Below, piece after piece: positions 5,419-19,850 of a stretch of 41,950 bases of DNA. Within the stretch, counting starts at the first letter, position 1; each line of letters starts with the position of its first letter. The notes beneath the pieces were generated by a model. The model did no database searches. It was not told the DNA's origin and worked only from the letters and a program-made list of their open reading frames with translations. Location: positions 1 through 41,950 of the IMG/VR virus record IMGVR_UViG_3300033141_003239; one strand, given 5' to 3'. The stretch comes from a virus. The position numbers and the translations under genes were made by a program.

Positions 5419-5630
5419 AGGAAAGACTTTACGGTAAACCCTGTTTATACTTGAATAGATTCTGCACGGTAGTTGACGCCATAGAAAGGGCGAGAAGTCT
5501 GCAGGATATTCAAATCCTTAGAGAATACACTTGCAAGCCTTGTCTTAGGCATGAAAGAGAAATTGATCCAACTAGCGATCTGGAAGATTTCATCAAAAAA
5601 GAAGGGATAAAACTAGATGGGTGGGAATGA
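5415..5630 (+). CDS. Small Cys-containing hypothetical protein
   Basis: This 71-residue protein has an ATGA start overlap and four cysteines (GKPCLYLNRFC and YTCKPCLRHE), which could bind a metal. The C-terminus is acidic. It overlaps the start of the phosphoesterase gene by 14 nt, so the two are probably translated together. Function not recognised. Confidence 0.65.
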   Translation: MKERLYGKPCLYLNRFCTVVDAIERARSLQDIQILREYTCKPCLRHEREIDPTSDLEDFIKKEGIKLDGWE

Positions 5631-7641
5631 AAGATTAAATCCAATTGCGCCAGTCGATGTTTGGCATGACTTAGAAGAGCAATTAGAACTTCTTCATAGT
5701 GATACTCCTCTTAAAGAAATCTGGACTCACTTTACACCTAACTTTGTAGACACTCAGGTTGCAAAATTTGATATGGAGGAAGCATTGAGGGCAATGAGTG
5801 AGAGATGCAGGATTTATCAGGAGACAAAGATCACCCAACCCTCAGCGGTGATAACCTTAGACACGGAACTACCCGTGTCTATTTTTTTTAGTGGTGATTG
5901 GCACTTTGGCTCGATTTATACCGATCATGAAAGGCTTTTGGAAGATTTACATAAAATTATGGAAACGCCAAATGCCTACCTCTTCTTGATGGCTAACTTA
6001 ATAGACAATGGTATTCCTGCCAAATATCCTGATGCGATGTTAAGAAACTCCCTGCCTCCCCAAGAACAGGTAATTGCGGTAAGAAAAATAATTCAGAAGC
6101 TGGATGAGAAAGGAAAAATTCTTGGAGCAGTAGTCTCACCTTGCCATGAGGGGTGGTGTATAGATGCAGAAAAAAGCGAAATTCTTACACGAAACGGCTG
6201 GAAAAAAGAAGAAGAAATTCTAATAGGCAGCGAAATTGTTACTTTTAATATTTTTACGGAGAAGTTTGAATATGCAAGGGTATTGGATAAATATAGCGGA
6301 TATTATAATGGTGAAATGTTTCATTTTAAAAACGATAATGTAGATTTACTATGCACTCCAAACCATAAAATTCTTTACATTAATAGTAGTAAGAAATATT
6401 TTCACGAGGCAAAACTAATTAAAAATATAAGTAATATCAAATTCTGGCAAACTACAAAATTTGCAAATCAGCAGGACGGGAGTAATAGAGGCGCTTATGA
6501 TTATAGTCTAATGTTAGTGGCCTGGATTATTACGGAGGGGACATATAGCAAAAAATTTAATAGAATCACTATTTATCAATCAACTAAAAATCTTCCTATG
6601 TTAGAACGTATTAGAAAAATCTTGCGGAAGAATCATATTAAATTTAAGGAAAGTATCCATCCATCTGGATTTGGCGGAGCTGATGTAGTTGGTTTTAGTT
6701 TCAAACCATCTGTTGATTTTATGAAACGATGGTTTCCTACTGAAGCCATACATCGTATACCACGAAGAATATTTGATTTTAGAAAAAAGAAAAGAATCCT
6801 ATTTCTACGAGAATTAATGTTGGGAGATGGAACAAGTCGTGAATTTACCTATAATACTCGTTCCTGGGAACTAGCAAGTGATGTTCAAGAATTAGCAATT
6901 AAATCTGGAATCAAAGCAACAATAGGAAAAAAAGGAGAAAAGGATTGGGCTATATATATGAAAGAACCAAATGGAAGAAATGGGGGAAATTTTGTATGGA
7001 TTGGTAATGGAGAGATGAGGAAAATTGATTTTAAGGGGAAAATATGGTGTCCTCATACTAAAAACGGTACAATCGTGGTAAGAAGAAATGGCAAAGTATG
7101 TATTACGGGAAATACCTGGACTGTCGCAGGACAAGATATTAATGCCATGCTTTTTGGTTATGAGGGCAGGAAATTTCCAGTTTTGGAGAACGGAGGGATT
7201 ACTCATTTGTTTGTCGGCAGTCAGGAATACCAGATTGCCTCTTACCATCAAATCGGACCATTTGAAAGCAACTTTAATCCTACTCATGGGATAAGACAAA
7301 TGAATAGATTAAGAGCAAGGAATGTAGATATAATATGTGCCGCCCACAAACATTGGGGGGCAACCCTACAAGTCTATGAAGGTGTGGCAGAAAGTATGCG
7401 TCCCAATGTTTATATTAGAAGCGGAACTTATAAACTAGATGACCAATGGGCACGGGAACGCTGGGGAATTCTTGGCGAGCCCTCAGGACAATCAGTTATG
7501 CTTTGGCCTAATGAAAGACGGATGCAGGAGTTCTTAGATATTGATACAGCCATCGAAGCTCACGAAGCAATCTATCTAGTAAGGTGGCTTGAAACTGTAG
7601 AGATGTTGGGGAAAATAAGGGAATTGGCAGAAGCCTCCTAA
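5617..7641 (+). CDS. Metallophosphoesterase interrupted by an intein
   Basis: The extein (residues 1-180 and 500-674, about 355 residues after splicing) is a calcineurin-like phosphoesterase. Motifs: GDWHFGS (D94, H96), MANLIDNG in place of GDxxDNG, SPCHEGW in place of GNHE, and AAHKHWG in place of GHxH. Key metal ligands are thus partly replaced, so activity may be altered. The intein (residues 181-499) sits right after SPCHEGW. Phage enzymes of this class act as DNA end nucleases or phosphatases; the substrate is unknown. It is the last gene of the lysis-side operon and is followed by a promoter-rich gap. Confidence 0.82.
   Translation: MGGNERLNPIAPVDVWHDLEEQLELLHSDTPLKEIWTHFTPNFVDTQVAKFDMEEALRAMSERCRIYQETKITQPSAVITLDTELPVSIFFSGDWHFGSIYTDHERLLEDLHKIMETPNAYLFLMANLIDNGIPAKYPDAMLRNSLPPQEQVIAVRKIIQKLDEKGKILGAVVSPCHEGWCIDAEKSEILTRNGWKKEEEILIGSEIVTFNIFTEKFEYARVLDKYSGYYNGEMFHFKNDNVDLLCTPNHKILYINSSKKYFHEAKLIKNISNIKFWQTTKFANQQDGSNRGAYDYSLMLVAWIITEGTYSKKFNRITIYQSTKNLPMLERIRKILRKNHIKFKESIHPSGFGGADVVGFSFKPSVDFMKRWFPTEAIHRIPRRIFDFRKKKRILFLRELMLGDGTSREFTYNTRSWELASDVQELAIKSGIKATIGKKGEKDWAIYMKEPNGRNGGNFVWIGNGEMRKIDFKGKIWCPHTKNGTIVVRRNGKVCITGNTWTVAGQDINAMLFGYEGRKFPVLENGGITHLFVGSQEYQIASYHQIGPFESNFNPTHGIRQMNRLRARNVDIICAAHKHWGATLQVYEGVAESMRPNVYIRSGTYKLDDQWARERWGILGEPSGQSVMLWPNERRMQEFLDIDTAIEAHEAIYLVRWLETVEMLGKIRELAEAS
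6157..7113 (+). mobile_element. Intein with LAGLIDADG endonuclease domain
   Basis: The 319-residue intein begins with Cys (CIDAEKSEILTRNGW, block A), has block B with TPNH (LLCTPNHKI), and ends ...GKVCITGN followed by Thr as first extein residue. Two dodecapeptide motifs mark a homing endonuclease: VAWIITEGTY (about residue 301 of the host protein) and ELMLGDGTS (about 399). The usual penultimate His is replaced by Gly (GN instead of HN), a known variation in some inteins. The insertion point is inside the catalytic motif region of the host enzyme, the kind of conserved site inteins prefer. Confidence 0.9.
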
Positions 7642-10627: not shown

Positions 10628-11173
10628 ATGAAAACAGCAATAGAGCTAAAAAAGTATCAACGAAGAATGTTGGCTAATCCAACGCCGGCCGAAAGAATAA
10701 TTGCAGAAAAATTACAAACGGCGGGATTTGATTTTAAGCAACAGATGATTTTAGGTTTTTATATTTTAGATTTTGTAATTCCTAAAAAAATGTTAGTAAT
10801 AGAGGTTGATGGAAAGAACCACGAGGAGAGGAAGCAGATAGAATATGATGTTAAAAAAGACAACTTTATTAAAGAATGTGGCTTTTCTATATTGAGAATA
10901 AGGAATGAATATGCAGAGGGATTTGATATTGAGGTGATAAAGAATATGAAAAATCGGACAACAAAAGAATTTAGAAGTAGTTTAGGAAAAGCAAATGCCT
11001 TAAGAAGTAAGGCAATCCAGAAAACAAAGAAGCGATTATCACCAGAAGGGGACGACTTTCAGAAACTTAAAAAATTATTAGAGAAAGATATTCCCAACAC
11101 AATTATTCAGTTAATAGAACAATATGTAGAAGTATGTGAAGCGTTAACGGGAAAAAAATTTATTAAAAAATAA
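10628..11173 (+). CDS. DUF559 / Vsr-like endonuclease
   Basis: This 181-residue protein has an N-terminal KKYQRRMLANPTPAERIIAEKLQ helix followed by a restriction-endonuclease fold: FYILDFVIPKKMLVIEVDGKNHEE with D48, E59 and D61, then YDVKKDNFIKECGFSILRIRN. This matches DUF559, related to very-short-patch repair and homing endonucleases (EDxHD type). Residues 115-181 are a helical extension not typical of the minimal domain. It sits between a structured RNA and a chain of tiny genes and may be a free-standing homing endonuclease. The target is unknown. Confidence 0.8.
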   Translation: MKTAIELKKYQRRMLANPTPAERIIAEKLQTAGFDFKQQMILGFYILDFVIPKKMLVIEVDGKNHEERKQIEYDVKKDNFIKECGFSILRIRNEYAEGFDIEVIKNMKNRTTKEFRSSLGKANALRSKAIQKTKKRLSPEGDDFQKLKKLLEKDIPNTIIQLIEQYVEVCEALTGKKFIKK

Positions 11174-15899: not shown

Positions 15900-16100
15900 A
15901 TGGTATTTTTACATACAGAACAGACGAAGCCTATTTATTGTAAGTGTTGTAAGAAAGAAATTATTAAGGAAAAAGACTTAATTACTCTTTGTAGTGATTG
16001 TTTTACCTGTTATCTTGCTTGTTTAGATGTAAAAAAACTAATAAAATATCCTAAAAAGTATCCTATAGCAAAAAGAGGTGATTTTAAAAAAAAGCCTTAA
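15900..16100 (+). CDS. Small Cys-rich zinc-finger-like protein
   Basis: The 66-residue protein carries YCKCCKKEI, LCSDCFTCYLAC, a dense cysteine pattern for one or two zinc sites, and a basic tail. It sits between the terminase genes. There is no strong ribosome site (AGAAAGTAGAGAT before the ATG). It may bind DNA or the packaging complex; not recognised. Confidence 0.55.
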   Translation: MVFLHTEQTKPIYCKCCKKEIIKEKDLITLCSDCFTCYLACLDVKKLIKYPKKYPIAKRGDFKKKP

Positions 16101-16230: not shown

Positions 16231-18384
16231 ATGGTAAAAGAAAAGATTGAAATCAAATATGCTCCTCTTCCTTGGCAGAGGGAGATTCATGAAGACAATC
16301 ATCGGTTTAGAGTTGTCTGTGCAGGGAGAAGAAGTGGAAAAAGTGTTCTCTCCAGACAAGAAGTGATAAGAAAAGCGATTTTTTTAGATGTGGAAAAATG
16401 GAAAGAGAAGTGGAAAGGGATTTCAAAAGTGCCAAAGTTTTGGATTGTTTCGCCGACTTTTAGACAAGGAAAAGAAATCCATTGGACAGAACTTAAACAA
16501 GATATTCCTTGGCAGTTGGTAGAAAGCAAAAATGAACAAGAGTTGAAGATTAGATTGAAGAATGGAACTGAGATTGCTATTAAAGGAGCAGATAATGAGG
16601 AGAATTTAAGAGGATCAGGATTGGTAGGAGTAATTTTGGATGAGGCAGCTTACCTGAAACCCAATATTTGGACTGAAATTATCTCTCCAATGTTGGCAGA
16701 GACAAAAGGATGGGCATTGTTTATCTCAACTCCCTGTGGTTATAACTGGTTTGAGAAGCTGTTTAGGCGGGGAGATCCGAAAAGTAAAGATTATCATAAG
16801 GATTGGAAAAGCTGGCATTATAGTAGTTATATCAATCCTGACGCAAGAGAAGAAGCAGATCGGGCAAAAGAAACAGAATCTGAAGAGTTTTATCGTCAAG
16901 AATGGCTGGCAGAGTTCACTACTACTACAGGAAGAATTTATAAGAAGTTTTCAAGAGATATTAATGTAATTAAACCCTTCCAGATCGACCAAAGCTTTAA
17001 GGTGATTGCGGGTTATGATTTTCCTGGCGGAGGAAAAGCCGCCGCCGCTTATCTTTTGATTGCAATTAACCCAGACGGAGTTTGGTATATCATTGATGAA
17101 CTTTATGCGGTGGAAAAAACTTCTCAATGGATTTGTGGACAGATTCTGGCGATGACTGAGCCTTATGAATCTTTAAGACCAGGGGAGCCTGTCCCCAAGT
17201 ATTGTGATCCCCATGTAAGACAACTGGTTGAGGATTATGCTGCTTGGAATGTCCATTTGATTTCTGCCAGAAAAGAAACAAAGACTCAGATGCGAAGTTG
17301 GATCAGGCATGGAATTGATTTAGTGAGAAGATTATTGGTTAAGGATGCTAGAACAGGAAAACCAAAACTGTTTGTTTTTAATACTTGTGAGAACACAATC
17401 AGAGAATTTGAGACTTACTCTTGGAAAAAAAATCCTGATCCTACCCTAAATGAGCCAGGAGTGCCAGCAGATGCCAATAATCATTGTTTTACTGGTGAGA
17501 CTTTGATTTCTACAATCAAAGGAAATAAAAAAATTGCCGATATTAAAGAAGGGGAGCTTATTTTGACTAGTAAGGGATATAAAAAAGTTTTGAAAAAATG
17601 GAATAACGGAATTAAAAGAATAAATAAATACTTGTTACACTTAGATACAGAAAAAGTTATAATTAAAGCTACACCAGATCATAAAATTAAAACAACAAGA
17701 GGATGGAAACAAATATCAAAACTAAAATCGGGAGACAAAATTTACTTATTCAAACTTTTCAAGGAAAAGAATACCGACTTTATTCTGGAGAAAAATATTT
17801 CTCACGAGGGACAAAAAGACTTCATGTTGTTGTTTGGGAATACTTCAATGGAAAAGTTCCATCAGATAAACAAGTTCATCATAAAGACGGCAATACCTGG
17901 AACAATAATATTCAAAATCTTGAACTTATTGAAAAAAATATTCATCGAAAAATTCATGGACAAAGAAGATTTAAAGAAAACAGAAAATGGGCAAAAGAAT
18001 TTCAAAAAAAAGGAGTCGAAGCAGCTAAAAAATGGCATTCTTCAAAAGAAGGTCGCAAGTGGCATAGCCAACATGCCAAAGAGCAATGGAAAACTAGGAA
18101 GCCTGTGGAAAAAATTTGTGTGGTTTGTGGCAAGAAATATAAAACCTTCTTCCCCAGCAGAAGTAAATACTGCCATCCGAATTGTAGAGCTAAAGCGCTT
18201 AGAATGCGTAGGAAGCTGGAAAGAAAAAGTTTATGACCTCACAATAGATAAAACTCCCGAATATTTTGCTAATGGTATTTTAGTTCATAATTGCATGGAT
18301 GCTCTACGCTATGCGAGGGTGAGTTATGAACATCGGGAGGATATATGGATTCCAGAGAAAGAGAAAAACTGGGCACTAAAATAG
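16231..18384 (+). CDS. terL: Terminase large subunit interrupted by an intein
   Basis: The ATPase domain shows Walker A CAGRRSGKS (30-38), Walker B VILDEAA (D137, E138) and the STPCG coupling motif (166-170). The nuclease domain has GYDFPGGG (D263), IIDELY (about 287-292) and MDALRYA (D690). The intein occupies residues 419-687 and splits the usual H-A/C-MDALRYA motif between His and Cys; Cys688 is the first downstream extein residue. The spliced protein would be about 448 residues, normal for the family. It drives DNA packaging into the head and cuts the concatemer. The 3' end overlaps the next gene by 40 nt. Confidence 0.95.
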   Translation: MVKEKIEIKYAPLPWQREIHEDNHRFRVVCAGRRSGKSVLSRQEVIRKAIFLDVEKWKEKWKGISKVPKFWIVSPTFRQGKEIHWTELKQDIPWQLVESKNEQELKIRLKNGTEIAIKGADNEENLRGSGLVGVILDEAAYLKPNIWTEIISPMLAETKGWALFISTPCGYNWFEKLFRRGDPKSKDYHKDWKSWHYSSYINPDAREEADRAKETESEEFYRQEWLAEFTTTTGRIYKKFSRDINVIKPFQIDQSFKVIAGYDFPGGGKAAAAYLLIAINPDGVWYIIDELYAVEKTSQWICGQILAMTEPYESLRPGEPVPKYCDPHVRQLVEDYAAWNVHLISARKETKTQMRSWIRHGIDLVRRLLVKDARTGKPKLFVFNTCENTIREFETYSWKKNPDPTLNEPGVPADANNHCFTGETLISTIKGNKKIADIKEGELILTSKGYKKVLKKWNNGIKRINKYLLHLDTEKVIIKATPDHKIKTTRGWKQISKLKSGDKIYLFKLFKEKNTDFILEKNISHEGQKDFMLLFGNTSMEKFHQINKFIIKTAIPGTIIFKILNLLKKIFIEKFMDKEDLKKTENGQKNFKKKESKQLKNGILQKKVASGIANMPKSNGKLGSLWKKFVWFVARNIKPSSPAEVNTAIRIVELKRLECVGSWKEKVYDLTIDKTPEYFANGILVHNCMDALRYARVSYEHREDIWIPEKEKNWALK
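17485..18291 (+). mobile_element. Terminase intein whose central part is overprinted by an HNH gene
   Basis: A 269-residue intein. Block A is CFTGETLIST with Cys1; block B has ATPDHKIKT; the front Hint half ends near GDKIYLF. The C-terminal half has VYDLTIDKTPEYFANGILVHN with canonical His-Asn, followed by Cys. All splicing residues are present. In the intein frame, residues from about 17770 to 18165 look like nonsense and hold no endonuclease motif; the same DNA in another frame encodes a complete HNH endonuclease. So splicing and homing seem to be coded in different frames of one segment. Confidence 0.92.
17703..18236 (+). CDS. HNH homing endonuclease nested out of frame in the intein
   Basis: This 177-residue product is read one base off the terL/intein frame and lies wholly within the intein. 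It has a GTKRLHVVVWEYFNGKVP lead-in, the HNH core VHHKDGNTWNNNIQNLELI (H59, H60, N64, N67-N69), a basic linker and a C-terminal zinc ribbon C139-x2-C142 ... C157-x3-C161. All parts of phage HNH endonucleases are intact. ATG 17703 has only AGAGG just before it; a later start is possible. Its last 24 codons overlap the conserved intein block F region, so both frames encode conserved residues there. Confidence 0.85.
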   Translation: METNIKTKIGRQNLLIQTFQGKEYRLYSGEKYFSRGTKRLHVVVWEYFNGKVPSDKQVHHKDGNTWNNNIQNLELIEKNIHRKIHGQRRFKENRKWAKEFQKKGVEAAKKWHSSKEGRKWHSQHAKEQWKTRKPVEKICVVCGKKYKTFFPSRSKYCHPNCRAKALRMRRKLERKSL

Positions 18385-19130: not shown

Positions 19131-19210
19131 GGCTAGGCAAGGCGTGGCGTGGCAAGGCCAGGCCAGGCAAGGCAAGGCACGGCGGGGCAAGGCGAGGCTT
19201 GGCAGGGCAA
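19131..19210. repeat. GGCNN pentamer array 1 (16 units)
   Basis: Sixteen uninterrupted 5-bp units, all beginning GGC with two variable bases (AA most common; also GT, CA, TA, AC, GG, GA, TT, AG). It is GC-rich in AT-rich DNA. Period 5 shows it is not protein coding. It lies between the 18548 and 19242 genes, about 18 nt before the latter's ribosome site. Confidence 0.95.
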
Positions 19211-19241
19211 GTTTAATAGAATAGAAAGGGGGTGAAAGATA

Positions 19242-19765: not shown

Positions 19766-19850
19766 GGCACGGCTGGGCGGGGCAAGGCCAGGCGCGGCAA
19801 GGCGCGGCGTGGCCAGGCGCGGCAAGGCGTGGCTTGGCTTGGCAAGGCAA
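19766..19850. repeat. GGCNN pentamer array 2 (17 units)
   Basis: Seventeen uninterrupted GGCNN units (variable pairs AC, TG, GG, AA, CA, GC, GT, TT), same orientation as array 1, 12 nt after the stop of the 19242 gene and 4 nt before the -35 of the next promoter. Confidence 0.95.

Follow-up and report, generated by a model that had tools for sequence, protein, structure and literature searches.

An HNH endonuclease gene in a second reading frame of a phage terminase intein, and its relatives in other phage lineages

Can one stretch of phage DNA encode, in one frame, an intein that interrupts the terminase large subunit and, in another frame, the homing endonuclease of that intein? This question is raised by the DNA analysed here, which we refer to as the window: the 41,950 nucleotides of the IMG/VR virus record IMGVR_UViG_3300033141_003239. 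From its sequence alone it had been proposed, in what we call the original prediction, that the terL frame stays open across an intein of 807 nt with complete splicing motifs, that a complete HNH endonuclease lies one base out of register within it, and that selection is likely to keep the terminase frame open. We found that this observation is correct in all its coordinates and is neither a fluke nor a sequencing error. The arrangement is made up of the following features, all on the plus strand:

16231-18384 (+), terL, the terminase large subunit, a continuous ORF of 717 codons that includes the intein
16231-17484 (+), N-extein of TerL (ATPase and most of the nuclease domain)
17485-18291 (+), intein (Hint splicing domain) of 269 codons, TerL residues 419-687, with Cys1, a C-terminal His-Asn and Cys+1
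17485-17754 (+), N-terminal splicing half (intein residues 1-90) with blocks A and B (ATPDH, 17668-17694)
17755-18171 (+), middle of the intein frame (residues 91-229), stop-free, predicted disordered and without an endonuclease motif, standing where other inteins carry an in-frame endonuclease
18172-18291 (+), C-terminal splicing half (residues 230-269) with block F (VYDL, 18229 onward) and block G (ILVHN)
17703-18236 (+), hidden HNH endonuclease gene of 177 codons plus stop, in the -1 frame relative to terL, with the HNH core at 17874-17909, CxxC at 18117-18128 and CxxxxC (YCHPNC) at 18168-18185
17703-17705 (+), HNH start codon ATG, formed by the last base of GGA (Gly) and TGG (Trp) of the intein
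18234-18236 (+), HNH stop codon TGA, formed across TAT GAC (Tyr-Asp) of intein block F
18292-18384 (+), C-extein starting CMDALRY (the conserved DAxRY motif of the TerL nuclease)

Both translations were searched against profile databases, as the original prediction had asked for. The TerL ORF matches phrog_2 (1.7e-52) and Terminase_6N (8.6e-7). The intein on its own matches the Pfam family Intein_splicing (PF14890, 3.4e-12), as well as TIGR01443 and TIGR01445, the N- and C-terminal intein models. The HNH ORF matches HNH_3 (4.6e-17) and phrog_15471 (2.2e-23). The middle of the intein frame gave no Pfam or NCBIfam endonuclease match, and no group I or group II intron was detected with Rfam between positions 16000 and 19000 at E values up to 1. 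AlphaFold predicts an intein whose two ends are confident (pLDDT 85-96 for residues 1-90 and 85-93 for residues 230-269) and whose middle lies below 50; Foldseek matches the ordered parts to solved inteins, among them the Mtu RecA intein (6.6e-8). The HNH, modelled without rows from database phages, is predicted with a mean pLDDT of 92.9, and its best match among solved structures is I-HmuI (1U3E), although this match is weak (Foldseek E 0.048, probability 0.84). The same phage carries a second intein that provides a useful internal contrast: an exonuclease-like gene (phrog_7339) at 5617-7641 contains a 319-aa insert (6157-7113) with intein-like ends (GW-CIDAEK ... CITGN-T) and a LAGLIDADG_3 match (3.9e-6), and its other two frames hold 18 and 40 stops, so it is an ordinary in-frame intein.

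Could the TerL frame have remained open by chance? It has no stop in the intein, while the unused third frame has 24. We calculated, with the HNH protein fixed and the phage's own codon use, that 5.4 stops are expected in the TerL frame and that the probability of finding none is 4.5e-4; the original hand estimate of about one in 10,000 was therefore within an order of magnitude. To test whether both frames stay open in homologous terL inteins, a check proposed together with the original prediction, we collected relatives by HNH and intein searches and from phage records and clustered them at 90% nucleotide identity (individual loci are given L numbers below). A scan of genome contigs contributed only two relatives, L069 and L070, and a scan with the intein of the near relative L014 found only itself. 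Of the resulting 102 clusters, 85 have the HNH out of frame inside a continuous TerL-intein frame: in 64 the host frame is +1 relative to the HNH, as in the window, and in 21 it is +2. In the remaining 17 the HNH is free-standing, lies between split intein halves or was not resolved, and in none of the 102 is it fused in frame.

Given the HNH proteins and local codon use, 682 stops were expected in the TerL frames of the 85 hidden clusters and none was seen (342 expected and 0 observed in the +1 class; 340 and 0 in the +2 class). In the unused frame, by contrast, 1437 were expected and 1490 observed in the +1 class, and 205 and 223 in the +2 class, while the 17 clusters that are not hidden gave 88 expected and 104 observed in one frame, and 230 and 255 in the other. 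It should be noted that the sequences are not phylogenetically independent, so the summed log-probabilities (-216 and -201) are not true P values, but the contrast between frames is not affected by this. In addition, the open frame of Tetrasphaera phage TJE1, a cultured, GC-rich member, is not significant on its own (P = 0.115). A second sign is found at the amino-acid level. Met followed by Lys, Asn, Thr, Ile or Met forces TGA in the +1 host frame, and this combination occurs 0 times among 72 internal Met in the +1 class, against 50 of 120 in the +2 class and 21 of 46 in the clusters that are not hidden. The interpretation offered in the original prediction, that of an independent out-of-frame HNH gene nested in a continuous intein whose terminase frame is kept open by selection, is thus supported by the comparative data. 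Neither of the conditions that had been named as contradicting it holds: compensating indels cannot explain 85 lineages in two different phases, and no relative has the HNH in the intein frame.

The intein and the HNH are also conserved in their functional residues. Cys1 is invariant in 17 aligned relatives, the block B pattern TxxH is present in 85 of 85 hosts, and the C-terminal N[C/S] was found by pattern in 84 (with Cys at +1 in 81 and Ser in 3) and by eye in L044. The catalytic His/Asn (H59, H60 and N68) and the four zinc-ribbon Cys of the HNH are invariant across 32 diverse members. Of 81 host N-exteins scanned, most match terminase-large-subunit profiles, 71 of them phrog_2 alone, and the inteins sit within a few residues of each other at the conserved DAxRY motif (C-MDALRY, C-DALRY, DA-CRY, C-SHAADSIRY), whose Asp is the third catalytic Asp of the TerL nuclease. 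The host ORF of L042, with 1167 codons, is far longer than TerL plus intein and may hold a further insertion or fusion.

The HNH gene fills exactly the linker between the two splicing halves, and its stop lies in or near intein block F. The start codon is formed from the Gly-Trp that follows block B: in 41 of 41 window-type loci the codon before the Trp ends in A and so makes the ATG, although codon use predicts only 15.3. Control Gly codons in the same intein half end in A in 50% of cases, and two specific conserved Gly positions in 20/35 and 27/36. Across relatives the HNH stop lies 31-80 nt (median 55) before the intein end, and in 35 of 61 same-phase loci it is formed by the Tyr-Asp-type pair of block F. 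It had been suggested that both frames carry conserved residues near 18165-18236, and this is supported. Among 15 diverged members, host-frame identity exceeds a null that keeps the HNH proteins and an open host frame, strongly for HNH codons 1-18 (0.55 against 0.27, z = 24) and 156-177 (0.39 against 0.26, z = 11). The unused control frame shows an excess too (z = 17 and 10), so shared ancestry contributes in part; a formal overlapping-gene dN/dS or synonymous-rate model was not run. Between the two ends the excess is small (z about 1-6) and similar to that of the unused frame, probably reflecting shared ancestry. The middle of the intein frame is therefore best read as a stop-free, disordered spacer, with dual protein-level constraint only at the two ends, which corrects the original view. 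In the HNH genes of L002 and L008, the first roughly 75 residues differ while the rest is nearly identical, suggesting recombination inside the overlap.

Several comparisons indicate that intein and hidden gene move together. The occupied locus L206 and the empty loci L209, L211 and L212 share flanks of 91-95% nucleotide identity, with a clean 876-nt insertion at GCT|TGT. Among the 80 best terL relatives of L168, 47 are empty and 29 carry an intein. The inteins of L073 and L123 are 81% identical in DNA over about 800 bp, and the nucleotide match ends about 20-30 nt outside the intein, although their N-exteins are only 35% identical in protein; L165 and L190 show the reverse (N-exteins 97.9% and inteins 67.8% nucleotide identity). 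Mobility is thus shown for relatives, but not for a close allele of the window's terL, which by its extein has only one relative in the viral collection: L281 (36% amino acid identity), which is empty at the same site and reads AFDH-CMDALRY.

Based on these results, we consider the most likely explanation, with a probability of about 0.8, to be a mobile intein in the large-terminase gene whose homing endonuclease is an overlapping gene rather than a fused domain. In this view, the TerL frame is translated straight through the insertion, and the Hint domain, its two halves joined by an unstructured linker, splices itself out to give active terminase. From the same mRNA, ribosomes would initiate internally at the AUG made by the codon before the conserved Trp and translate the -1 frame into a separate 177-aa endonuclease. 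This enzyme would cut intein-free terL alleles at the DAxRY site, and repair would copy the intein together with its hidden gene. Selection for working terminase would keep the TerL frame free of stops, and selection for homing would keep the HNH protein. Our computations establish the two ORFs, the two protein families, the absence of stops beyond chance across 85 lineages, the conserved start, the empty alleles and the horizontal similarity restricted to the intein; splicing, internal initiation and cleavage specificity are inferred, as neither splicing, expression nor cleavage of the empty allele was assayed. The expression signals are weak in the window: a Shine-Dalgarno-like AAGAGG abuts the ATG with no spacing. 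Hidden loci have on average much weaker ribosome-binding sites than free or split relatives, which have strong GGAGG sites (-3.2 against -7.5 kcal/mol), although some hidden loci (L045, L048, L049 and L056) have strong ones.

Of the alternative explanations, two are unlikely but deserve consideration. The first is that the HNH is made by programmed ribosomal frameshifting as an intein-N/HNH fusion. This would be in line with the mostly weak ribosome-binding sites, and a -1 shift from the TerL frame would enter the HNH frame at the window. However, frameshifting would not need the conserved ATG, the open HNH frame often begins only 1-6 codons upstream of it, and the two phases would need opposite shifts. 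We saw no canonical slippery heptamer in frame between 17698 and 17760 on inspection, the relatives not having been scanned systematically. Moreover, some members have a strong Shine-Dalgarno site in place and split relatives start the same gene from a GGAGG. Frameshifting is nevertheless not excluded. The second is that the HNH is a packaging partner of terminase, as proposed for HK97-type HNH proteins, nested in terL for co-expression. Free-standing relatives mostly sit beside terL, and Kala et al. 2014 (cited in PMC4422536 and PMC10448857) report HNH proteins in packaging. However, close relatives lack the whole element, with clean empty sites and otherwise intact terL, and the element moves between diverged terL genes with sharp ends; a required packaging factor should not be dispensable in this way. 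It is very unlikely that the HNH frame is a dead relic kept open by chance and that only the intein is functional: homing endonucleases commonly decay after fixation and the expression signals in the window are weak, but the catalytic and zinc residues are invariant, a full-length ORF is present in 85 clusters and start codons are kept. A sequencing or assembly error, for which nothing speaks beyond the oddness of the layout, is refuted by 85 clusters from unrelated assemblies, including the GenBank phages TJE1, LS06-2018-MD07 and Highwayman, and by the overlap of the HNH zinc ribbon and block F on the same bases, so that no pair of indels gives both in one frame.

How does this arrangement relate to known systems? 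The original prediction named no precedent for an overprinted free-standing HNH gene in a continuous intein, but the layout is not unprecedented. The ShiLan domain in mycobacteriophage DNA methylases (Arsenault, Gosselin, Gogarten 2025, PMC11855218) is also an insertion that stays open in the host frame and holds an out-of-frame HNH endonuclease; it has spread horizontally and its expression route is unknown. The authors found no intein splicing motifs in it, so the insert is thought to stay in the methylase, whereas here a complete, conserved Hint intein surrounds the HNH, the host is TerL and both alternative phases occur. One sentence in a study on brucellaphages (Virol J 2015, PMC4422536) states that these carry a putative intein-encoded HNH out of frame within terL; the passages on it give no splicing motifs, homologues or selection test, and kinship to ORF 8 of brucellaphage Tb was not assessed, the brucellaphage genomes NC_019446, JN939331 and KC556897 not being part of our set. 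In bifunctional inteins the LAGLIDADG or HNH endonuclease is a domain of the intein and is made with it, and these inteins likewise move into conserved sites of essential genes; here the endonuclease is a separate product of another frame. The TerL inteins of mycobacteriophages splice and cut intein-free alleles, but they lie in the ATPase domain (PMC5050341). In fractured genes of the gp41 type (Dassa et al. 2009), the endonuclease is a gene with its own start between split intein halves; in the window and 84 other clusters TerL is one continuous ORF and the HNH overlaps the intein frame completely. I-HmuI belongs to the same nuclease family (HNH_3, phrog_15471), but is encoded by a group I intron. 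As far as could be checked, the broad TerL family, the real intein around the gene, the two phases and the evidence for selection are new, although a 2025 preprint by Gosselin et al. on actinobacteriophage inteins with "non-canonical architecture", cited in PMC11855218 as showing overlapping frames, may contain related cases.

The relatives also provide hints on the origin of the layout. The closest free-standing relatives are separate genes beside terL, mostly between terL and the portal gene. L046, L050-L053 and L195 have the fractured layout TerL-IntN / HNH / IntC-TerL with the same HNH family, the IntC ORF starting inside the HNH 3' end, so the split and the hidden layouts are linked by evolution, a point that has to be added to the original interpretation. 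On a quick tree of 99 HNHs the four layouts need 10 changes, against 32.5 for shuffled labels, and the +1 class alone needs 7 (starred branches force at least 2). The hidden layout probably arose, or changed phase, more than once, but branch support is moderate. We consider it somewhat more likely than not that these loci represent a previously uncatalogued, widespread class of overprinted inteins, in which the splicing domain and its homing endonuclease are overlapping genes in two possible relative phases and the endonuclease borrows its start codon and often its stop codon from conserved intein motifs, and which was assembled more than once by capture of terL-associated free-standing HNH genes and is connected to split-intein layouts.

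Inteins typically carry their endonuclease as a fused domain or, when split, as a gene between the halves. The finding that the same nuclease family occurs free beside terL, between split intein halves, and overprinted inside continuous inteins in either alternative frame gives a natural series for asking how inteins gain endonucleases and how split inteins arise. It is also a long same-strand gene overlap (about 530 nt) with hundreds of natural replicates, intein-free alleles and cultured or genome-sequenced carriers, so overlap evolution and internal initiation can be tested directly. In practical terms, gene callers miss these nucleases: the public records of L055 (TJE1), L056 (LS06-2018-MD07), L057 (MT838676) and L058 (Acinetobacter phage Highwayman) show only terminase, or nothing, but hold the hidden HNH.

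Elsewhere in the window, positions 10628-11173 encode a DUF559 / REase_MTES_1575 nuclease-like protein (Pfam 2.1e-17; phrog_559 "HNH endonuclease", 3.8e-9). Between terL and the portal gene, at 19131-19211 and 19776-19848, the AT-rich genome contains GC-rich arrays of 5-nt GGCAA-like units of unknown function.
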